The translations under genes and the position numbers were made by a program. Below, piece by piece: positions 1,127 to 53,500 of a stretch of 64,000 nt of DNA (its first letter is position 1; the number at the start of each line of letters is the position of its first letter). The stretch is from Actinomycetes bacterium (GTDB taxonomy: Bacteria; Actinomycetota; Acidimicrobiia; Acidimicrobiales; Acidimicrobilacustridaceae). The notes under the pieces are model-generated. The model was not told where the DNA came from and did not search any database. It saw nothing but the letters and a program-made list of their open reading frames with translations. The DNA lies in the NCBI GenBank assembly GCA_029782145.1, contig JAKOVH010000031.1, forward strand, positions 1 to 64,000, in the 5' to 3' direction.

Positions 1127-1174
1127 AGCTGGTTCCGAACGTTCCGGTTCCCGGAACGTTCGGAACCAGCTTCG
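1124..1174. terminator. 24-bp perfect hairpin, bidirectional terminator candidate (palindromic family copy 1)
   Basis: Arms 1124-1147 and 1151-1174 are perfectly complementary, with a 3-nt loop (TTC). The hairpin sits between convergent pgl and alcohol dehydrogenase genes and ends 3 bases before the latter's stop codon. No U-tract follows on either strand, which is common for GC-rich actinobacterial terminators. A related hairpin occurs at 63544-63588. Confidence 0.75.
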
Positions 1175-1177
1175 GGG

Positions 1178-2269
1178 TCAGAGGGTGACCACGGTGCGGA
1201 TGCCGCGGCCGGCGCGCATGTCGTCGAAGCCCTCGTTGATCTCGTCGAGGGGCCGACGGGAGGAGATCATGCCCTCGAGGTCGAGCCGACCGCTCGCCCA
1301 CAGCGAGAGCAGGCGGGGCACCTCGCGATGCGGGTTGGCCGAGCCGAAGACGCAGCCGAGGAGCTTCTTCTCGCCCATGACGTGACCAGCAGCGGAGATC
1401 GTGAGCTCGCCGGCGCCGGCGCCGACACCCACCCCGACCGTCGTGCCGCCCCGTCGGGTGGCCGCCAGCCCCGCTCCGAGCAGCGCGGGGCTGCCGGCCG
1501 CGTCGAAGGCGTAGTCGACGCCGACGCCGCCGGTGAGCTGCTGGCACGCCTCGACCACGTCGACGTCGGACGGGTCCACGGCGTCGGTGGCGCCGAAGCG
1601 GCCGGCCGCGTGGCGCCGCTCGGCCACCGGGTCGCTCACGATGATGCGGGACGCTCCGGCCAGCCGGGCCCCTTGCACGACGGAGACCCCGACGCCGCCG
1701 AGGCCCATGACCAGCACCGTCGCGCCCTCCTCGACCTTCGCCGTGTTGAGCACGGCCCCGACGCCGGTCTGCACCGCGCAACCGACCACGGCGGCCACGT
1801 CGAGCGGCACCTCGGAGCCGATCCTCACCGCGCCGGCCTCGGTGGTGACGACGTGCTGGCCGAAGCCGCCGACACCGAGTCCCCGGTAGACCGGCGCGCC
1901 GTCGCGCGACAGCGGCGTGGTGCCGTCGGGGAAGACCCCGGCGAGGGCCACCATGGCCGACTCGCAGATCGACTCCTCGCCCCGCACGCACCAGTAGCAG
2001 CGGCCGCACGGCGCCAGCGGTGCGAGCAGCACGGCATCGCCCGGGGCCAGCGTGGTGACGCCGACGCCGACCTCCTCCACCACGCCGGCGGCCTCGTGGC
2101 CGAGCACGACAGGCAGGAGCCCGCCGGCTCCCATGATCGTCAGGTCGCTGTGGCACAGCCCGCAGTGGGCGACCCGCACCCGCACCTGCCCGGGCCGGAG
2201 GGGGGCGACCTCGACGTCGGCCACGACCTCGAGCGGCCGACCGACCTGCTCCAACAGCGCTGCGCGCAT
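1178..2269 (-). CDS. Zinc-dependent alcohol dehydrogenase (MDR family)
   Basis: Medium-chain NAD(P)-dependent alcohol dehydrogenase, 363 residues. Catalytic zinc ligands are visible: C39 (in CGLCHSD), H58 with E59 (GHEAAG) and C163 (VGCAVQTG). The structural zinc lobe has C88, C91, C94 and C102 (CGRCYWC...C). The Rossmann motif VMGLGGVGVSVV lies near 187. The overall layout resembles class III or NDMA/mycothiol-type enzymes of actinobacteria; the alcohol or aldehyde substrate cannot be told from sequence. The ATG at 2269 is preceded by a strong ribosome site (GAGGAGGGA, 7 nt spacing), so this transcript has a leader. It converges on pgl and is divergent from fbiC. Confidence 0.93.
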   Translation of the reverse strand: MRAALLEQVGRPLEVVADVEVAPLRPGQVRVRVAHCGLCHSDLTIMGAGGLLPVVLGHEAAGVVEEVGVGVTTLAPGDAVLLAPLAPCGRCYWCVRGEESICESAMVALAGVFPDGTTPLSRDGAPVYRGLGVGGFGQHVVTTEAGAVRIGSEVPLDVAAVVGCAVQTGVGAVLNTAKVEEGATVLVMGLGGVGVSVVQGARLAGASRIIVSDPVAERRHAAGRFGATDAVDPSDVDVVEACQQLTGGVGVDYAFDAAGSPALLGAGLAATRRGGTTVGVGVGAGAGELTISAAGHVMGEKKLLGCVFGSANPHREVPRLLSLWASGRLDLEGMISSRRPLDEINEGFDDMRAGRGIRTVVTL

Positions 2270-2406
2270 CTGACGTTCCCTCCTCGCTCGCCGACGGGCG
2301 CCCGCTGGGGGGCCGGCCGCCGTGGACTGCGACCGACGCTACCCACCGCGCCGGGCCCGACCGGGCGCTCCGACGGTGACGGCCCGGCCACCGTGCGCCG
2401 GACCGG

Positions 2407-2412
2407 TATCGT
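2407..2412 (+). promoter_or_regulatory. -10 hexamer TATCGT, leaderless start of fbiC
   Basis: TATCGT ends 6 nt before the ATG at 2419, so transcription should begin at or next to the start codon. No ribosome-binding site or clear -35 box is seen. Confidence 0.55.
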
Positions 2413-2418
2413 GCCCGC

Positions 2419-4761
2419 ATGCCGCGTGCCCTGGACGGTCCGCTCGAGTCGCTGATGGCCGAGGCCCGGGCGGTGCGCGACGCCGCCCACGGCACCCGGG
2501 TGACCTACTCGCCGAAGGTGTTCATCCCCCTCACCATGCTGTGCCGCGACCGCTGCGGCTACTGCACGTTCGCCCAGCCGCCCGCCCGGCTCGAGTTGCC
2601 CTTCCTCACCGCCCAGCAGGTCGTCGCCCTGGCGCGCGCCGGTGCCCGCGTGGGCTGCCACGAGGCCCTCTTCACCCTGGGCGAGGCCCCCGAGGAGCGC
2701 TACCCCGTCGCCGCCGAGTGGCTCGCCGAGCACGGCTACGCCAGCACCGTCGACTACCTCGTCGCCATGGCGCAGCTGGTCCTCGACGAGACCGGCCTGC
2801 TCCCCCACGCCAACGCCGGGGCCCTCTCGGCCGACGAGCTCGCCCGGCTCCGCACCGTCTCGCCCTCCCAGGGGATGATGGTCGAGACGCTCCGCTCCGA
2901 CCTGCCCTGCCACCGGGGCGCCCCGGACAAGGCGCCCGAGCGCCGCCTCGCCACCCTCGAGGCCGCCGGGCAGCTCGCCATCCCGTTCACCACCGGCATC
3001 CTGGTGGGCATCGGCGAGTCGCGGGCCGACCGGATCGCCGCCCTGGAGGCCATCGCCGCGTCGCACCGGCGCCACGGCCACGTGCAGGAGGTCATCGTCC
3101 AGAACTTCCTGCCCAAGCCGGGCACGGCCATGCACGCGGAGCCACCGTGCCCGCAGCACGACTACCTCGACGCCATCGCCCTGGCCCGCCTGATCCTCCC
3201 GCCTGAGGTGCACCTCCAGGCGCCCCCCAACCTCTCCGACGACTTCGGCGTGCTGCTCGACGCCGGCATCGACGACTGGGGCGGGGTCTCGCCCGTCACC
3301 GCCGACCACGTCAACCCCGAGCGGCCCTGGCCCGACCTCGACCGGCTGCGCGACGCCACCGAGGCCCGGGGCATGGTGCTCGCCCCGAGGCTCACCGCCC
3401 ACCCCGAGTACGTCCTCGAGCCCGAGCGGTGGATCGACGAAGGGCTGCGCTTCGCGGTGATGGACCGCTCCGACGCCGAAGGTCTCGGGCGCGACGACCC
3501 CGGCGCGATCTTCGTGCAGCGCCTCACCCCCGCCTCACCCGAGCAGGTCGACGACGGCGTCGAGGTCCTGCAGATCGGCCCCCGCTCCACCGCCTGGTAC
3601 TCGGGCGCCAACGTGGCGCCGCCCGTGCTGGTGCCGGCACCGGGGAGGGCCACCGGGGCGGTCAGGGAGGTGCTCGACGGGGTGCTGCTCGGCCAGGCGG
3701 TCGGCCTCGACGAGATCGTCACCCTCTTCGGCGCCCGCGGGCCAGAGCTCGCGGCAGTGGCCGAGGTGGCCGACGAGCTGCGCCGTACGGTCAACGGCGA
3801 CGTCGTGACCTACGTGCACAACCGCAACATCAACTACACCAACGTGTGCACGTTCAAGTGCCGCTTCTGCGGGTTCAGCAAGGGACCGCTGTCGTTCAAC
3901 CTGCGGGGCACGCCGTACCTGCGCACCCTCGACGACATCGCCGAGCGCACCCGGGAGGCCGCCGAGCTGGGCGCCACCGAGGTGTGCCTGCAGGGCGGCA
4001 TCCACCCCGACTTCGACGGCGACTACTACATCGACGTCACCCGGGCGGTGAAGGCAGCGGCACCCGACATCCACGTGCACGGCTTCACCGCCCTCGAGGT
4101 CACCGAGGGCGCTCGCCGCCTCGGCGAGCCGCTCGACCGGTACCTGCGCCGGCTGATGGACGCCGGCCTGCGCACGTTGCCGGGCACGGCAGCGGAGATC
4201 CTCGACGACGAGATCCGCGCCGTCATCTGCCCGGACAAGATCACCACCGACGAGTGGCTCGAGGCGCATCGCACGGCCCACTCCGTCGGGCTCCGGTCGA
4301 ACATCACGATCATGTTCGGGTCGGTGGAGCAGCCCGTGCACTGGGCCCGCCACATCCTGCGCACGCGCGACCTGCAGGCCGAGACGGGCGGCTTCACGGA
4401 GTTCGTGCCGCTGCCGTTCGTGCACATGGCGACCCCGCTCTACCTCCAGCGGCGGTCTCGCCGGGGGCCGACGTTCCGGGAGGCCGTGCTCATGCACGCC
4501 GTGCCGCGCATCGCGTACCACGGGCTCATCGACAACATCCAGACCTCGTGGGTGAAGCTCGGCCCGCTGGGCGCCCGCCAGGCCCTGCAGGCCGGGGCCA
4601 ACGACGTCGGCGGCACCTTGATGGACGAGAACATCAGCCGGGCCGCCGGCGCCGACCACGGCCAGATGATGCAGCCCGACGACTTCCGGGCCCTCGTCGA
4701 GCCGCTGGGCCGCACCCTCGAGCAGCGCACCACCCTCTACGGCCGCCTGGCCGTCGTCTGA
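2419..4761 (+). CDS. fbiC: FO synthase, fused CofG-CofH (coenzyme F420 biosynthesis)
   Basis: Makes 7,8-didemethyl-8-hydroxy-5-deazariboflavin (FO), the F420 chromophore, from tyrosine and 5-amino-6-ribitylamino-uracil by two radical-SAM reactions. The 780-residue protein has both halves fused, as in actinobacteria. The N-terminal CofG half carries a CxxxCxxC cluster motif at C42, C46 and C49 (CRDRCGYC). The CofH half carries a second at C477, C481 and C484 (CTFKCRFC). Other CofH signatures include CLQGGIHPDF and the C-terminal ENISRAAGADHG. Both [4Fe-4S] motifs are intact and no frameshift is seen. The ATG at 2419 is supported by a -10 hexamer 6 nt upstream. A LOG-family gene follows after one base and is probably co-transcribed. 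Confidence 0.97.
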   Translation: MPRALDGPLESLMAEARAVRDAAHGTRVTYSPKVFIPLTMLCRDRCGYCTFAQPPARLELPFLTAQQVVALARAGARVGCHEALFTLGEAPEERYPVAAEWLAEHGYASTVDYLVAMAQLVLDETGLLPHANAGALSADELARLRTVSPSQGMMVETLRSDLPCHRGAPDKAPERRLATLEAAGQLAIPFTTGILVGIGESRADRIAALEAIAASHRRHGHVQEVIVQNFLPKPGTAMHAEPPCPQHDYLDAIALARLILPPEVHLQAPPNLSDDFGVLLDAGIDDWGGVSPVTADHVNPERPWPDLDRLRDATEARGMVLAPRLTAHPEYVLEPERWIDEGLRFAVMDRSDAEGLGRDDPGAIFVQRLTPASPEQVDDGVEVLQIGPRSTAWYSGANVAPPVLVPAPGRATGAVREVLDGVLLGQAVGLDEIVTLFGARGPELAAVAEVADELRRTVNGDVVTYVHNRNINYTNVCTFKCRFCGFSKGPLSFNLRGTPYLRTLDDIAERTREAAELGATEVCLQGGIHPDFDGDYYIDVTRAVKAAAPDIHVHGFTALEVTEGARRLGEPLDRYLRRLMDAGLRTLPGTAAEILDDEIRAVICPDKITTDEWLEAHRTAHSVGLRSNITIMFGSVEQPVHWARHILRTRDLQAETGGFTEFVPLPFVHMATPLYLQRRSRRGPTFREAVLMHAVPRIAYHGLIDNIQTSWVKLGPLGARQALQAGANDVGGTLMDENISRAAGADHGQMMQPDDFRALVEPLGRTLEQRTTLYGRLAVV

Positions 4762-42949: not shown

Positions 42950-43600
42950 CTAGACGGCGCTGGCCCGCAGCAGCGCGTGCTGCACCAGCTCGAGCAGGGC
43001 CAGCTTGGTGCGGCCCCGGTCGCGTGCGTCGGTGGTGATCATGGGCACGTCCGCGGGCACGGCCAGCGCCTCGCGGACGTCCTCGAGCTGGTGCTGCTGC
43101 TCGCCGTGGAACAGGTTCACGGCCACGATGAACGGCACCCCGTTGCGCTCCATGTAGTCGACGGCGGGGAAGCAGTCGGCCAGGCGGTTGGTGTCGACCA
43201 GCACGACCGCGCCGATGGCGCCACGGATCAGGTCGTCCCACATGAACTGGAACCGGTCCTGCCCCGGGGTGCCGAACAGGTACAGCACCAGGTCCTCGCC
43301 CAGGGTGATGCGGCCGAAGTCCATGGCCACCGTGGTGGAGGTCTTGCCGGTGTTGGTGCCGCCGGTCTCGTCGATGCCCTCGGCGACCTTGGTCATGGCC
43401 GCTTCGGTGGTGAGCGGCTCGATCTCGGAGATGGAGCCGACGAACGTGGTCTTCCCGACGGCGAAGCCGCCGGCCACGATGATCTTCACCGGCAGCGGCG
43501 CGCTCGAGGTCGAGGCGCTCGACGCCGGCGCGGACGACGAGGCGGCGCCCGGACCGGTCACAGCGGTGGTGGCGGCGATGTCAGAGGGACTGGAGGCCAT
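42950..43600 (-). CDS. cvnD: Conservon GTPase (CvnD-type, MglA-like ATP/GTP-binding protein)
   Basis: Small Ras-like GTPase of 216 residues, the output switch of the Cvn system. Walker A is GGFAVGKTT at 44-52 and the switch/G3 element GTPGQDRF lies at 110-117. VLVDTNRLADCF and VAVNLFHG stand in for the G4 region, typical of this group. An unusual Ser/Ala-rich leader (~35 residues) precedes the fold. In conservons CvnD is controlled by the roadblock and DUF742 partners upstream. Its start overlaps the DUF742 gene by 20 bp. Last gene of the operon. Confidence 0.93.
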   Translation of the reverse strand: MASSPSDIAATTAVTGPGAASSSAPASSASTSSAPLPVKIIVAGGFAVGKTTFVGSISEIEPLTTEAAMTKVAEGIDETGGTNTGKTSTTVAMDFGRITLGEDLVLYLFGTPGQDRFQFMWDDLIRGAIGAVVLVDTNRLADCFPAVDYMERNGVPFIVAVNLFHGEQQHQLEDVREALAVPADVPMITTDARDRGRTKLALLELVQHALLRASAV

Positions 43601-43964
43601 CGAGGACCCTTTCGAGCAGCTGGCGGTCCGGGCGGTCGCCGGTCCGGGTGTGGTCAGGGGCGGAGGCGGTCAGCAGGCCTTCGTCGACCATGTCCCCGAC
43701 GAGGACACGGACGACGCCGAGGGGGAGTCGGAGGTGGGCGGAGATCTCGGCGACCGAGATCGACCCGACGCAGCGGGTGAGGATCTGGCGCCGCTCGAGC
43801 GCGAGGGTCGGCATGGTGGCCCGGCCGGTGGCCGTCACCTGGATCAACGCCTCGAACGGCAGGTCGGCAGCGCCTCGGGTCCGCCCGCCCGTGAGCACGT
43901 AGGAGCGGACGCGCAGGCCCGACGACGCGCCGTCGGAGCCGAAGGGCGCGCCCGTCGGGCTCAT
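43581..43964 (-). CDS. cvnC: DUF742 conservon protein (CvnC-type)
   Basis: A 127-residue DUF742 protein. The core has RVRSYVLTGGRTRGAADLPFEALIQVTATG, LALERRQILTRCVGSISVAEISAHLRLPLGVVRVLVGDMVDEGLL (a winged-helix-like segment) and the C-terminal DRQLLERVLDGLQSL characteristic of the family. CvnC proteins are DNA-binding-fold adaptors in the four-component Cvn systems. The ATG at 43964 overlaps the roadblock stop (ATGA). A longer in-frame reading exists but runs antisense-like into the neighbour. Confidence 0.93.
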   Translation of the reverse strand: MSPTGAPFGSDGASSGLRVRSYVLTGGRTRGAADLPFEALIQVTATGRATMPTLALERRQILTRCVGSISVAEISAHLRLPLGVVRVLVGDMVDEGLLTASAPDHTRTGDRPDRQLLERVLDGLQSL

Positions 43965-44389
43965 CGCGGGAGCGCCGCCTGGAGCTCGGCGCGGATCTCG
44001 GGGGTCAGCACCCCGCCGGCGCGGTCGACGAGCACGGCCATCTCGTAGCCGACCAGGCCGACGTCGCACTCCGCCTCGGCGACGCACGCCAGGCAGGACC
44101 CGTCGCTGATGCCGGTCACGAACAAGAAGGCGTTCTCCATCTCGATGATGACCTCGTTCACCGCGCCGCCGCCGAAGCGGCCGGCGGCGCCGTAGGCGAG
44201 GCCGATGAGCCCCGACGCCACCGCGGCGAAGCGGTCGGCCGACTCACGGTCGAGGCCGGCCGAGGCGGCGATGGGCAGGCCGTCGGAGGACACCACGACC
44301 GCCTCGGAGACGCCGGGGACCTTCTCGGCGAAGTTCTGCACCAGCCAGTTGAGGTTCCTGGCGGCGGCACTGAGCTCCATCATGGTCAT
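43961..44389 (-). CDS. cvnB: Roadblock/LC7 conservon protein (CvnB-type)
   Basis: A 142-residue roadblock/LC7-domain protein that in conservons acts on the CvnD GTPase. The fold is recognisable from LNWLVQNFAEKVPGVSEAVVVSSDGLPIAAS (helix, strand, turn), ADRFAAVASGLIGLAYGA, VNEVIIEMENAFLFVTGISDGSCLACVAE and VGLVGYEMAVLVDRAG. Length is usual. Start and stop overlap the kinase and DUF742 genes by 4 bp each, so the three proteins are made stoichiometrically. Confidence 0.94.
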   Translation of the reverse strand: MTMMELSAAARNLNWLVQNFAEKVPGVSEAVVVSSDGLPIAASAGLDRESADRFAAVASGLIGLAYGAAGRFGGGAVNEVIIEMENAFLFVTGISDGSCLACVAEAECDVGLVGYEMAVLVDRAGGVLTPEIRAELQAALPR

Positions 44390-46884
44390 TCCTCTTCACC
44401 TCGGGTCGTGGGGTCGGAGCCGGTGGGGCCGGCAGGGCCGTTGGGTTCGCCAGAGCTGCTGGGCCCTGTGGGTTCGGTCGTGCGCCCACGGTCGAGGCCG
44501 GAGCGGTACCGCGACAGCATCCGTCGGACCTCCTCGGGCGAGCGGGCCGTGCGGGTGACGGCCCGGCCGGCGGCGGGAGCGGTCCCGGAGCTCGCGGTGG
44601 CGCCGGGCGTGCGCCGCACCAGCCCCGCCGCGGTCAGCGACGGCGCCGCGGGCGCCGGTGCCGGCGCCTCGGGGGCGGCCACGGGCGCGGCGGCCGGTGA
44701 CGTGGAGGTGTCGTCGGAGGGGTCGGCGCCGCGGCGCATCGGCAGCCCGGACGGACCGGGAGACGGGACCTCGACCGGCACCATCGGCTCCCCGACCGGC
44801 GCCGGGGCGTCGCTGCTGGCCGACTCCGCCGGTGCCCCGGCGCCGACCGGGACGGCGGCGGGGCGGGCGGGCCGGCGGGTGCGGGTGGGTCGGCCACCGA
44901 CGGAGGCCATGACCTCGAGCGGCGACGGCGCCGGCTGGGCCTCCTCGCCGGGGTACTCCACCAGCCCGTAGGGCAGCTCGACGGTGGCCACGATGCCGCC
45001 GTCGTCGCGGGCGGCGAGCTGGACGCTGAGCCCGTAGCGGGCGGCGAGGCGGCCGACGACGGTGAGGCCGAGGGACCGGCTCAGGGCGAGGCCGACCATG
45101 GGCGGGTGGGCCAGGTGGTGGTTGGCCTCGTCGAGCTGCTCGGCGCTCATCCCGATGCCCCGGTCGGCGACGGTGAGGACGTAGCCGTTGCGGTCGTCGT
45201 AAGCGCCGAGCACCTCCACGCTCGTGTGGGGCGGCGAGGCGTTGGTGGCGTTCTCCATGAGCTCGGAGAGCAGGTGGGCCAGGTCGGCGGCCACGTTGGC
45301 GGCGACGGTGGCGTCGTCGAGGGCGAGCAGGTGCACCCGCTGGAAGTCCTCGACCTCACCGATGGCGACGCGCACCACGTCGGCGACCGGGACCGGCTTG
45401 CCCCGGCGGCGGGGCGGGTCCGCTCCCGCCATGACGAGCAGCGACTCGGCGTTGCGGCGCATCCGCGTGGCCAGGTGGTCGAGCTTGAACAGGTTGTCGA
45501 GCTGGTCGGGGTCGCGCTCGTTGGACTCGAGCTGGTCGATGAACTCGATCTGGCGGTCGAGCAGGCTCTGGTTGCGCCGGGCCAGGTTCACGAAGATGTC
45601 GCCGATCCCCTTGCGCAGCAGGCGGCTCTGCTCCTCGGCCACGTCCACGGTCACGGCCTGGATCGAGTTGAAGGCGGCGGCCAGCTCGCCGATCTCGTCG
45701 TGGGAGTCGACCTCGATCGGCGTGAGCGTCTCGGCGATGCTCTCGGCGTCTTCGTCCTCGGGGTTGCGCAGCTGCTCGACGAGCGCCGGCAGCTGCTCGT
45801 TGGACAGCGTGCCCGCCGCCTTGGTGAGCCGGTTCAGCGGTCGGGTGATCGAGCGGGCGACGACCACGGCGATGGCGAAGGCGATGGCCAGGCCGCCGGC
45901 GCCGGCCAGCAGGTAGAGCGTCACCGACTGCGACGCCGCCTGCTCCTGCGAGCGCGCCTCGTCGACGACCTGCTTGGTGAGCGCGGTGTCGACGTTCGAC
46001 AGGCCGTTGAGGGCGCCGAGGCTCGTGGAGAGGGTCTCGTCGGCGCTGATCAGCAGGCGGTTGCCGTCGTTGCCCTGCTGCATGATCTGGGCGGCGACGT
46101 CCTGGTAGCGCAGGGCGCCCTCGGCGTTGGTGACGGCCTGCTTCTGCTGCGGGGTGGCGCCGCTGCGGCTCAGGTTGTCGGTGCTGCGGGCGTAGGCCTG
46201 GGTCGCCTTCGAGGCCCGGTCGTAGGACTCGCAGTCGTTGCGCACGTCCGGGCACACCACGCCGGACCGGTCGGTGAACCCGCCGGCCTCGGCGGCGGCG
46301 ACCAGCAGGGTCGCCTGGGCGTTCTGAGCCTCCCGGATCTGCTCGACGCGTGCCATGGCGTCGAGGCCCCGCAGCAGCGTCGGGTCGTTGGCCTCACCGG
46401 CGAGCGAGGCGTTCACGCCCACGAACGAGCCGATGACGTCGCCGAACAGCTCGGCCACCGCGTAGGGCTGGGTCAGGCTGCTGTCGACGGCGCCGCGGAG
46501 GCCGCGGAGGCTGTTCAGGCGGTTGCGGGCCAGGTTGGCGTTGACGGCGAGCGACCCGTCCTTGGGACCGGGGTCGAGCTGTTCGAGCGCCTGCTGGTAG
46601 CGGGCCACGGCGGCGTCGGTGCGCACCCGCTGCTCGTCGAGCTCGGTGCGGCCGGCCTGGCCCCGGCTGCCGGTGTAGACGGCCGAACGCAGCTGCTCGA
46701 TCTGCAGCTGGTTCACGAGGTCGGTGCCCACCAGGGCGAAGGAGCTGAGGCTCTCCACCCGTGCCGCGTCGGCGGCGCTGGCGCGCCGGTCCCGGACCCC
46801 GACGCCCACGAGGGCGACGATGACGACGATCGGCGCCAGCAGGATCGCGAAGAGCTTGGTACCGACCTTCAGGTTTCGCAGCAT
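44386..46884 (-). CDS. cvnA: Conservon sensor histidine kinase with nitrate-sensor-like domain (CvnA-type)
   Basis: Membrane sensor kinase, 832 residues. TM1 at ~10-30, an extracytoplasmic nitrate/nitrite-sensing-like helical domain at ~40-318 and TM2 at ~321-343, followed by HAMP (RSITRPLNRL). The dimerisation/phospho-acceptor helix has H470 (LFKLDHLATRMRRN). The HATPase domain has N545 in ELMENATNASPP and the G1 box DRGIGMS at 574-580. The last ~190 residues are Pro/Ala/Thr/Ser-rich and probably disordered. Like other CvnA proteins it may bind ATP without a classic response regulator. The ATG at 46884 has CGAGGG upstream. It heads the cvnABCD operon. Confidence 0.94.
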   Translation of the reverse strand: MLRNLKVGTKLFAILLAPIVVIVALVGVGVRDRRASAADAARVESLSSFALVGTDLVNQLQIEQLRSAVYTGSRGQAGRTELDEQRVRTDAAVARYQQALEQLDPGPKDGSLAVNANLARNRLNSLRGLRGAVDSSLTQPYAVAELFGDVIGSFVGVNASLAGEANDPTLLRGLDAMARVEQIREAQNAQATLLVAAAEAGGFTDRSGVVCPDVRNDCESYDRASKATQAYARSTDNLSRSGATPQQKQAVTNAEGALRYQDVAAQIMQQGNDGNRLLISADETLSTSLGALNGLSNVDTALTKQVVDEARSQEQAASQSVTLYLLAGAGGLAIAFAIAVVVARSITRPLNRLTKAAGTLSNEQLPALVEQLRNPEDEDAESIAETLTPIEVDSHDEIGELAAAFNSIQAVTVDVAEEQSRLLRKGIGDIFVNLARRNQSLLDRQIEFIDQLESNERDPDQLDNLFKLDHLATRMRRNAESLLVMAGADPPRRRGKPVPVADVVRVAIGEVEDFQRVHLLALDDATVAANVAADLAHLLSELMENATNASPPHTSVEVLGAYDDRNGYVLTVADRGIGMSAEQLDEANHHLAHPPMVGLALSRSLGLTVVGRLAARYGLSVQLAARDDGGIVATVELPYGLVEYPGEEAQPAPSPLEVMASVGGRPTRTRRPARPAAVPVGAGAPAESASSDAPAPVGEPMVPVEVPSPGPSGLPMRRGADPSDDTSTSPAAAPVAAPEAPAPAPAAPSLTAAGLVRRTPGATASSGTAPAAGRAVTRTARSPEEVRRMLSRYRSGLDRGRTTEPTGPSSSGEPNGPAGPTGSDPTTRGEEE

Positions 46885-47162: not shown

Positions 47163-47241
47163 CAGGAGACGACATGAGTGACACCTCGCAGGGGCCCGGC
47201 TGGTGGCAGGCCTCCGACGGCAAGTGGTACCCGCCCGAGTC
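47163..47241 (+). repeat. 79-bp repeat, copy 1 (ribosome site plus N-terminal tag)
   Basis: Identical to 47791-47869 except for one base. It covers CAGGAGACGAC, the ATG and codons for the first ~22 residues. Confidence 0.95.
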
Positions 47242-47758
47242 GGCCCCCGGTGGCGCTGCTCAGGCGAGCCCCATGGCCGGCGCGGCGGGCCTGCCCGCCA
47301 ACCAGTTCGGTGAGCTGGCCGACTGGGGCACCCGCGCCATCGGGCTCATCATCGACTGGGCGCTGCTCTTCGTGATCGTCTTCGTCGGGTTCATCGTGGC
47401 GATCATCCTCGGTGCGATCTCCGACGCCCTCGGCGTCCTGGTCGGCGCCCTCTTCTACCTCGTGGCCGCCTTCGGCTCGCTGTACATGGGCTACTTGGTC
47501 GGCCAGAAGGGCCGCAGCCCGGGCATGTCGATCATGGGCCTGCGCTGCGTGAGCGAGGAGACCGGCCAGCTGATCGGCGGCGGCATGGGCGTCGTTCGCA
47601 CCATCGCCCACTTCGTCGACTCGCTCATCTGCTACATCGGTTGGCTCTTCCCGCTCTGGGACGTCAAGCGCCAGACCATCGCCGACAAGCTCGTGAAGAC
47701 CGTCGTGCTGGCGAACCAGCCGAAGGAGAGCTTCAGCATCGACCTGCTCAAGCCCTGA
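47174..47758 (+). CDS. RDD-family membrane protein with Acidimicrobiia-type N-terminal tag
   Basis: A 194-residue membrane protein. Residues 1-25 form the tag MSDTSQGPGWWQASDGKWYPPES, related in look to DUF2510. After a short linker, residues ~52-190 are an RDD domain: ADWGTRAIGLIIDW (first helix with R and D), a long double helix region, GQKGRSPGMSIMGLRCV, and the third helix ending FPLWDVKRQTIADKLVKTVVL (second RD pair). RDD proteins are proposed transporters or antiporters; the role here is unknown. Strong ribosome site AGGAG 5 nt before the ATG. Its paralogue-tagged neighbour starts 43 bp downstream. Confidence 0.9.
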   Translation: MSDTSQGPGWWQASDGKWYPPESAPGGAAQASPMAGAAGLPANQFGELADWGTRAIGLIIDWALLFVIVFVGFIVAIILGAISDALGVLVGALFYLVAAFGSLYMGYLVGQKGRSPGMSIMGLRCVSEETGQLIGGGMGVVRTIAHFVDSLICYIGWLFPLWDVKRQTIADKLVKTVVLANQPKESFSIDLLKP

Positions 47759-47790
47759 CGGTCATCCTCCCGATCAGCACACGACCGCAC

Positions 47791-47869
47791 CAGGAGACGA
47801 CATGAGTGACACCTCGCAGGGGCCCGGCTGGTGGCAGGCCTCCGACGGCAAGTGGTACCCACCCGAGTC
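47791..47869 (+). repeat. 79-bp repeat, copy 2
   Basis: Second copy of the repeat at 47163-47241 with one mismatch; includes the ribosome site and N-terminal tag of the next gene. Confidence 0.95.
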
Positions 47870-48534: not shown

Positions 48535-49023
48535 GTGACCGACCCGGGCGACTCCCGCGCCGGCGACGCCCACCACCCGGTCCCCCCGGGCGGCTGGGCC
48601 CCGCCCACGGGTCGGCAGCCCCCACCCCCACCCTCGACCCCTGCGGGGGCGGCACCGCCGCCCCCGCCTGCCGGGTACGGTCAGCCGATCGCACCTGGAT
48701 ACCCGGCGACCCCACCCGTCTACCCGGCGACGACCGCGTACGCCTACGGCTACGGCTACGTCGCGCCCCGCACCGACGGGCTGGCGGTGGCATCGCTCGT
48801 GTGCGGCATCGCGTCGATCGTGGTCTGTGGCCTCGGAGTGGTCCTCGGCGTGCTGGGCCTGGTCTTCGGGCTGGTGTCGATGAACCGCATCCGCCGCGAG
48901 CCCACCCGCCTCACCGGACGCGGCCTTGCCCTCGCCGGCGCCATCTGCGGCGGCGTGGGCCTGGCCGGTTGGGCCATCTACTGGGTCGTCGTCGTGGTGA
49001 GCCTGGCCAGCGGCTCCTCCTGA
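48535..49023 (+). CDS. DUF4190-domain membrane protein
   Basis: A 162-residue protein: a ~75-residue Pro/Gly/Tyr-rich cytosolic tail (PPPPPAGYGQPIAPGYP, TAYAYGYGYVAP) followed by two transmembrane helices of a DUF4190 domain (GLAVASLVCGIASIVVCGLGVVLGVLGLVFGLVSMNRIRR...GRGLALAGAICGGVGLAGWAIYWVVV). Such proteins are frequent in actinobacteria and of unknown function, often near cell-envelope genes. The GTG start is 4 bases after the previous stop, completing a three-gene membrane-protein operon. It converges on gltD. Confidence 0.9.
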   Translation: MTDPGDSRAGDAHHPVPPGGWAPPTGRQPPPPPSTPAGAAPPPPPAGYGQPIAPGYPATPPVYPATTAYAYGYGYVAPRTDGLAVASLVCGIASIVVCGLGVVLGVLGLVFGLVSMNRIRREPTRLTGRGLALAGAICGGVGLAGWAIYWVVVVVSLASGSS

Positions 49024-49068: not shown

Positions 49069-50532
<1,464 letters not shown>

Positions 50533-50548
50533 GGCGTCGTCCTCTCCC

Positions 50549-53500
50549 TCAGACCCGGGCGGCGGCCATGACCGCCTCGACCGGGTCACGGCCCTCGGCG
50601 AGCGCTTCTCGCTCGGCGACGAGGACCCGCTTGTAGTCCTTCGGCATGACCTTCACGAACGTGCCGACGGCGTCGTCCCACCTGTCGAGCAGGCGGCCGG
50701 CCACGGTGGAGCCGGTCTCGGCGGCGTGGCGCTCGACGCGGTCGCGCAGCCAGAGCCGGTCGTCGTCGTCGAGGCCCTCGAGGTCGACCATCTCGGGGTT
50801 CACCCGGGCGGGGAAGGTGCCGTCGGGGTCGAGCACGTAGGCGATGCCGCCGGACATGCCGGCGCCGAAGTTGCGGCCGGTGCCGCCGAGCACCACGACG
50901 CGGCCGCCCGTCATGTACTCGCACGCGTGGTCGCCCACGCCCTCCACGATGGCGACGGCGCCGCTGTTGCGCACGCAGAAGCGCTCACCCACGACGCCCC
51001 GCAGGAACACCTCGCCGCCGGTGGCGCCGTAGAGGATGACGTTGCCGGCGATGATGTTGTCCTCGGCGACGAAGGGCGAGTCGGCCGGCGGGCGCACGAC
51101 GATGCGGCCTCCCGACAGGCCTTTGCCCGTGTAGTCGTTGGCGTCGCCGACCAGGCGCAGGGTGATGCCCCGGGGCAGGAAGGCGCCGAAGCTCTGCCCG
51201 GCCGAGCCGTCGAGGTCGATGACGATGGTGTCGTCGGGCAGCCCGGCGCCGCCGTGGCGGCGGGTGAGCTCCGCGCCGAGCATGGTGCCGACCGTGCGGT
51301 TCACGTTGCGGATCGGCAGGGCGATGCGCACCGGCTCGCCGTGCTCGAGCGCAGGCGTGGCCCGGGCGATGAGCTCGTTGTCGAGCGCCTTGTCGAGCCC
51401 GTGGTCCTGGCTCGCCACCCGGCGCCGGCTCGCACCCTCGGGCAGCTCGGGCACGTGCAGGATGGGGCTGAGGTCGAGGCCGGCCGCCTTCCAGTGGTCG
51501 AGCGCGGCCCGGGTGTCGATCATCTCGGCGTGGCCGATCGCCTCGTCGAGCGAGCGGAAGCCCAGCTCGCCGAGCAGCTCGCGCACCTCCTCGGCGATGT
51601 ACTCGAAGAAGTTCACGACGAACTCGGGCTTGCCCGTGAACCGCTTGCGCAGCTCCGGGTTCTGGGTGGCCACGCCGACGGGGCAGGTGTCGAGGTGGCA
51701 GACCCGCATCATCACGCAGCCCGACACGACGAGCGGGGCGGTGGCGAAGCCGAACTCCTCGGCGCCGAGCAGGGCGGCGATGACGACGTCACGGCCGGTC
51801 TTGAGCTGGCCGTCGACCTGCACCACGATGCGGTCGCGCAGGTCGTTGAGCAGCAGCGTCTGCTGGGTCTCGGCCAGGCCGAGCTCCCACGGGGCGCCGG
51901 CGTGCTTGAGCGACGTGAGCGGCGAGGCGCCGGTGCCGCCGTCGTGGCCGGAGATGAGCACCACGTCGGCGTGGGCCTTCGACACGCCCGCGGCGACGGT
52001 GCCGACCCCGACCTCGGCCACCAGCTTCACGTGGACCCGCGCCCGGTCGTTGGCGTTCTTGAGGTCGTGGATGAGCTGGGCCAGGTCCTCGATGGAGTAG
52101 ATGTCGTGGTGCGGCGGGGGCGAGATGAGGCCCACTCCGGGGGTGGAGTGCCGGGTCTGGGCGATCCAGGGGTAGACCTTGTGCCCCGGCAGCTGCCCGC
52201 CCTCACCGGGCTTGGCGCCCTGGGCCATCTTGATCTGGATGTCGTCGGCGTTGACCAGGTACTCGCTGGTGACGCCGAACCGGCCGGACGCGACCTGCTT
52301 GATGGCCGAGCGCTTCGAGTCGCCGTTGGGCAGGACCTCGAAGCGGATCGGGTCCTCGCCGCCCTCTCCGGTGTTGGACTTGCCGCCCAAGCGGTTCATG
52401 GCGATGGCGAGGGTCTCGTGGGCCTCGGCCGAGATCGAGCCGTACGACATGGCGCCCGTGGAGAAGCGCCGGACGATGTCGCTGACCGGCTCGACCTCCT
52501 CGAGCGGGACCGCCGGGCGCTCCCCCACCTTCAGCTCGAACAGGCCCCGCAGCGTGGCCAGCTGGCGGGACTGGTCGTCGACGCGCCTCGTGTACTCCTT
52601 GAACACGTCGTAGCGGCCGGTGCGGGTGGAGTGCTGGAGCTTGTAGACCGTCTCGGGGTTGAACAGGTGGTACTCGCCCTCGCGGCGCCACTGGTACTCG
52701 CCGCCGACCTCCAGGGTGCGGTGCGCCCGCTCGGTGGGGTTCGGCGGGAACGCCAGACGGTGCCTGGCCGCCACCTCGTCGGCGAGCTGGTCGAGGCCGA
52801 TCCCGCCGAGGCGGCTCACCGTGCCGGTGAAGAACTCCTCGACGAGGTCGTGGGAGAGCCCGACGGCTTCGAAGATCTGGGCGCCGGTGTAGGAGGCGAC
52901 GGTGGAGATGCCCATCTTCGACATCACCTTGAGCACGCCCTTGCTCACCGCCTTGATGTAGTTGGCGATGGCCTTGGTGGGGTCGTGCAGCTCGTTGAGC
53001 CCCTCGGCGATGCGGTCCTCGATGGTCTCGAACGCCAGGTAGGGGTTGATGGCGGCGGCGCCGTAGCCGAGCAGCAGGCACATGTGGTGCACCTCGCGGG
53101 CGTCGCCCGTCTCGACCACCAGGCCGACCTGGGTGCGGGTCTTCTCGCGGATGAGGTGGTGGTGCACCGCGGAGGTGGACAGCAGCGAGGGGATGGGGGC
53201 CATCTCCTCGTCGGAGTCACGGTCGGACAGCACCAAGATGGTGGCCCCGGCGTCGATGGCGTCGGTGGCCCGACGGCGGACCTGGTCGAGCGCCTTGCGC
53301 AGGCCCTCACCACCGGCGGCCACGGGGTAGAGGCACGGGATCACGACGGAGCGGAAGTCGCTGTGACCGTCGTAGTCGTCGATGTGCAGCAGCTTGTCGA
53401 GCTCGGTGTTGTCGATGACCGGCCGCGGCACGTAGATCTGCCGGCACGACGACGGCTGGGGGTTGAGCAGGTTGCCCTCGGGCCCGAGGGTGCCGCCGAG

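Follow-up and report, generated by a model that had tools for sequence, protein, structure and literature searches.

The closest described counterpart of the element reported here is DUF2510 (Pfam PF10708), a short, tryptophan-rich actinobacterial module that, like the tag considered below, lies at the N terminus or in tandem and is found together with DUF4328 or DUF4190. Its consensus differs from that of the tag, reading GWYPDP...RWWDGxxWT over 35 positions. For the DNA that encodes such modules the nearest precedent is concerted evolution by gene conversion, in which copies within one genome resemble each other beyond the levels given by codon bias and by comparison between genomes, in spite of unrelated flanks. 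In this study we examined a locus that invites both comparisons, located in the window, that is, the whole 64,000-nucleotide stretch of DNA from a member of the Acidimicrobilacustridaceae that was analyzed.

Two adjacent genes of the window open with the same 79-bp repeat (Table 1). The copies were compared within the window and differ at a single position, 47233/47861, which is the third base of Pro-20; further mismatches follow beyond the repeat at 47242/47870 and then at 47251/47879, and an extended alignment of 112 bp retains 101 identical positions. They are direct repeats placed 628 bp apart from start to start, and the 11 bp before the ATG (CAGGAGACGAC) are the same in both. Residues 1-27 (MSDTSQGPGWWQASDGKWYPPESAPGG) are 100% identical between the two proteins, which are unrelated afterwards. 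This confirms the original prediction of near-identical 5' ends on unrelated membrane proteins and extends the shared protein segment, which had been placed at about 22-25 residues, to residue 27. The pattern GWWx6WYxP has four matches in the 4.2-Mb genome, comprising the two window copies and two tandem units of one protein of ~515 aa on another contig; a reversed control pattern has none, and for a related pattern no matches are expected in the shuffled window. The second of the two window proteins, hereafter MEM, clusters with 20 other tagged proteins.

Table 1. Coordinates of the repeat, the tagged genes and their neighbors in the window.
Feature	Coordinates	Strand	Evidence
Module copy 1, comprising 11 upstream bases (Shine-Dalgarno AGGAG), 22 codons and a further 2 bases	47163..47241	+	
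Module copy 2, one mismatch relative to copy 1	47791..47869	+	
Tag of the RDD protein, 27 residues shared with its neighbor (MSDTSQGPGWWQASDGKWYPPESAPGG)	47174..47254	+	
Tag of the next membrane protein (MEM), same 27 residues	47802..47882	+	
RDD-family membrane protein, tagged, 194 aa	47174..47758	+	Pfam RDD, E 2.9e-14
MEM, polytopic membrane protein, tagged, 242 aa	47802..48530	+	without a Pfam match of its own
Product of the third slot gene, a DUF4190 protein with a proline-rich N terminus and no tag	48535..49023	+	
NIT-HAMP-HATPase sensor kinase (conservon CvnA-like), divergent, left border of the slot	44386..46884	-	
gltD-like oxidoreductase, convergent, bounding the slot on the right	49069..50589	-	

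The tagged genes occupy a conserved slot between the conservon kinase and gltD. Among 20 hand-chosen loci, 18 of them distinct (L065 and L066 repeat L045 and L048), tblastn located the kinase in 12 of the 18, gltD in 14, both in 9 and neither in 1, several of the loci ending early. The contents of the slot vary and include RDD with MEM, RDD with DUF4190 (a run of N lying between them), two MEM genes with DUF4190, and MEM alone. The DUF4190 gene in this position is tagged in genomes G033 and G036, and at L068, which lies outside the family, the slot holds an RDD gene without the tag. The kinase heads a complete conservon-like cluster (42950-46884, reverse strand) of NIT-HAMP-HATPase kinase, Roadblock/LC7, DUF742 and GTPase-like proteins, the last assigned by eye.

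Beyond this locus, the tag appears as a conserved protein module, GWWxAsDGxWYPP, and not as a start module private to the pair. Within the family, the pattern was present in 35 of 37 genomes, and within the class a related pattern was present in 26 of 198 (all 6 of those drawn from the same family and 20 elsewhere), which bears out the earlier expectation that the tag recurs in Acidimicrobiia. A stricter pattern that includes the following residues was found in 6 of the 198 class genomes, all from the same family. Outside the class, 2 of 136 genomes from a phylum-wide draw of 149 gave matches, both in one family; in a family outside the class, tag-like tandem units occur near 3223292-3228652 of G333:C1 (L232, L234). 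The tagged genes compiled in this way number 89 from the family and 21 from elsewhere, and the 87 proteins scanned further comprise 66 of the 89 together with the 21, a selection that omits one short piece and 12 genomes similar to one another within a single genus.

Over 95 distinct units of 17 residues, the motif G-W-W-x-A-x-D-G-x-W-Y-P-P is nearly invariant, and G, W, W, A, W, Y and the last P do not vary at all. The search pattern itself fixed G, W, W, W, Y and the last P, so that the independent part of this conservation consists of A (95/95) and of D and G of the turn (94 each). Two or three units, arranged in tandem and some of them internal, are carried by 12 of the 87 proteins. Among initial tags, the codon for Ser-2 is AGY in 82 of 82 and that for Ser-5 is TCN in 48 of 48; this combination is as common descent would give, although AGY at Ser-2 could also arise if this codon type is favored generally next to the start. 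The tags apparently form an undescribed group of small modules present on many proteins of one bacterial class: no Pfam or NCBIfam model covers the tag, a sequence search of PDB chains with the tag gave no match, and searches of a literature collection with the tag (GWWQASDGKWYPP, GWWQASDGKW) or with Acidimicrobiia and tryptophan-rich as terms returned no paper on it.

The proteins that carry the tag are a heterogeneous group. Pfam partners among the 87 include DUF4190 (11), DUF4328 (7), RDD (7), TM2 (4), SHOCT (4), DUF7847 (2), DUF6264 (2) and a protein kinase (1), with others found singly, and BLAST clustering of the 75 tagged proteins longer than 150 aa produced 26 clusters, 16 of which are single proteins. 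As to whether all tagged proteins are membrane proteins, a question raised with the original prediction, most are: a transmembrane segment is predicted in 77 of 87, and the linker between tag and first segment averages 20% proline and 14% glycine (n=77). The remaining 10 exclude a tag restricted to the membrane, seven of them falling in one related cluster and one, L061, being cut by a contig end. In that cluster (L042, L062, L127, L128, L133, L136 and L164), six of the seven members have two or three units. The tagged protein kinase (L056 in G027, 1141-2781, reverse strand) contains long proline-rich stretches and a C-terminal hydrophobic segment.

Several observations bear on whether selection acts on the protein or on the DNA. 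We compared 86 copies that have a start, using only pairs with at least 14 comparable codons. Synonymous identity between genomes averaged 0.476 (1383 pairs, maximum 0.889) when pairs within genus g2 were left out and 0.493 (1725 pairs) when they were included, and unlinked copies of one genome averaged 0.485 (32 pairs, maximum 0.79). Synonymous sites are thus near saturation while the tag protein is fixed, so that selection acts on the protein. These values weigh against a translation-start cassette, that is, an element selected as a ribosome site with early codons that ensure expression, which we regard as very improbable. Such a cassette would agree with the location of most copies at the very N terminus, with the uniform AGY at codon 2 wherever it encodes serine and with the purine-rich site before 81% of 57 copies. 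Upstream of these 57 copies, however, conservation is confined to purines at about -13 to -6, as in any Shine-Dalgarno site, and the internal second and third copies have no start sites. The same two points lead us to abandon the earlier description of the repeat as a start module of ribosome site plus tag.

The window pair nevertheless exceeds the similarity given by codon bias. Of its 18 synonymous codons 17 are identical, against 11.1 to 11.6 expected from codon bias as estimated from codon usage in the window (P 0.00066, or 0.0014 with another gene set); the genome mean GC3 is near 0.94 in the tested codons. It had been argued that purifying selection on protein alone would not keep synonymous sites identical, which is overstated, as codon bias alone accounts for about 11 of the 18. 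Could two old copies then be alike through protein conservation and the strong codon bias of a high-GC genome, with no exchange between them? Other adjacent pairs do lie at the level that bias predicts, and the AGT at codon 2, a codon rare in the genes of the window, is common at that position among tags (21 of 86 copies); because of this, a codon-frequency product of 2.5e-6 was set aside as evidence. We nonetheless consider this explanation unlikely, in view of the P values above, the 11 identical non-coding bases upstream and the shared residues 23-27. Also against it, a quartet analysis that included the congener G022 gave 9 sites uniting the copies of one genome and 1 uniting those of one gene, the outcome that gene conversion would produce; the comparison is weaker as a test of orthologues because the MEM gene of G022 is not an orthologue of the window MEM body: the two bodies share 31% identity and belong to different subfamilies, whereas the G022 body shares 48% with that of G035. 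Bodies in the slot thus change while the tags stay alike. The RDD tag of G022 is as close to the MEM tag of G035 (16 of 18) as to its own neighbor.

Similar excess was found for an adjacent pair in G022 (16 of 18 codons, P 0.0027), for the MEM/DUF4190 pair of G033 (12 of 15, P 0.0089) and for tandem units in G081 (15 of 17, P 5.6e-5). Together with the window pair (genome G000) these make 4 of 12 adjacent pairs below P 0.01 versus 0 of 17 unlinked pairs (Fisher P 0.02), drawn from eight genomes in which copies lie next to each other or in tandem, so that pairs sharing a genome are not independent. The other 8 of the 12 are at the codon-bias level without excess identity, which rules out general concerted evolution across the family. 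The normal synonymous divergence that had been proposed as the mark of a chance resemblance thus occurs elsewhere. The copy in the unlinked ~515 aa protein of the same genome matches the window copies at 7 and 6 of 13 codons, with 8.1 expected, and is no more similar to them than codon bias predicts. Homogenization is episodic and not general.

A further alternative is recent de novo tagging, in which one gene newly received the module from its neighbor. The tract of 79-90 bp within unrelated flanking DNA would suit such an event, as would the third slot gene, DUF4190, which has a tag in certain genomes and none here, and locus L171, where a whole module including its ATG has been duplicated in tandem. 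RDD orthologues in G022, G026, G034, G036 and L067 are tagged at the same place, however, as are MEM relatives in many genomes, and we regard this alternative as highly unlikely. Both host genes appear to have been tagged before the exchange, the RDD tag being old by its distribution. Because RDD orthologues elsewhere are tagged, new tagging agrees less well with the data than does local homogenization by gene conversion; of the two origins proposed at the outset, recent duplication or gene conversion, the data favor the latter and disfavor newly tagged genes. The donor was probably MEM, judging from the 11 upstream bases: those before the RDD gene of the window are shared with the MEM genes of both the window and G022, whereas the RDD gene of G022 has others. 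As a separate observation, the RDD gene at L171 (G081, reverse-strand coordinates 1360-1587) has its tag, including Met, duplicated in-frame with a 114-bp period and 14 mismatches in 114, next to an RDD gene with a diverged tag.

On balance, we lean toward the interpretation that the repeat encodes a conserved hairpin module whose two window copies were recently homogenized, likely by gene conversion. In AlphaFold models of both the RDD and the MEM protein, residues 11-12 and 18-19 form short strands and residues 21-23 a helical turn; pLDDT is 74 (RDD) and 72 (MEM) in the tag block and 30-49 in the linker, so the hairpin is predicted with moderate confidence. The RDD model was built from 10 sequences (mean pLDDT 79) and the MEM model, which is poor, from 3 (mean 53), and a PDB fold search with the RDD model gave no match at E <0.001. 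The repeated 5' end would accordingly encode a beta-hairpin rich in tryptophan (GPGWWQASDGKWYPPE) and, after it, a flexible, proline- and glycine-rich linker. This module would form the N terminus of otherwise unrelated proteins and lie in the cytoplasm, a placement suggested by the fact that it is also fused to SHOCT proteins, which are soluble, and to a protein kinase. We infer that the hairpin may be a docking tag through which various membrane proteins meet a common partner or one another. The neighboring copies would then have been homogenized recently, most likely by gene conversion between the direct repeats, as an episodic by-product of linkage that does not explain why the tag exists. 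In the RDD domain, a conserved intra-membrane site is reported to face the cytoplasmic side (PMC12419801).

A module of 16 residues that is near-invariant on proteins that are 20-30% identical or unrelated points to a shared partner. From gene order, one might guess at proteins of the conservon. A broader proposal, which we hold to be quite unlikely, is that the tag constitutes a cytoplasmic docking code of Acidimicrobiia with a common receptor, plausibly in the adjoining conservon. If true, one hairpin would recruit interchangeable RDD, MEM, DUF4190, TM2 and DUF4328 proteins as well as multivalent soluble proteins, its receptor would plausibly be found among the sensor kinase, Roadblock, DUF742 and GTPase proteins beside the slot, and local gene conversion would keep the tags alike and help to swap bodies in the slot.

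In comparison with known systems, we classify the tag as a module of its own, whose mode of action is probably similar to that of DUF2510. The DUF2510 Pfam model (cut-off 24 bits) matched neither the window proteins nor the bare tag, and DUF2510 was absent among the 17 families matched in the 87 tagged proteins (E 0.001). The two modules have partners in common: DUF4328 and DUF4190 occur in 7 and 11 of the 87 tagged proteins and in 3 and 1 of 34 DUF2510 proteins, the latter drawn by motif from 44 loci. These shared partners, the tandem arrangement and the short tryptophan-rich repeats would also suit a tag that is a degenerate or permuted DUF2510 domain and no separate module, which we consider not very likely. 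In addition to the lack of Pfam matches, a comparison of the profiles with hhalign was non-significant (probability 10.6% local and 0.1% global, from profiles of 17 and 26 columns, lengths at which such a comparison can decide little), and 21 of the 37 family genomes contain DUF2510 as well as the tag. A search of the same literature collection on DUF2510 and PF10708 found no paper.

Other likenesses are more distant. The designed tryptophan zipper trpzip2, a 12-mer, is a tryptophan-rich hairpin with a polar-Gly turn and tryptophans on both strands, as the tag may be, for which two models predict hairpin strands. WW and GYF domains are also small tryptophan/tyrosine modules that work with proline-rich segments, but they are larger, with three or more strands, and neither had a Pfam match on the tag. 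The window pair departs from usual concerted evolution in its tract of less than 100 bp, its episodic character and its location in an N-terminal module of non-homologous genes; linked copies of this kind make it possible to measure gene conversion on a shared module below 100 bp. The tag provides a defined small target toward what ties RDD, DUF4190, TM2 and DUF4328 together, and the same tie among partner proteins is a question that DUF2510 also raises.
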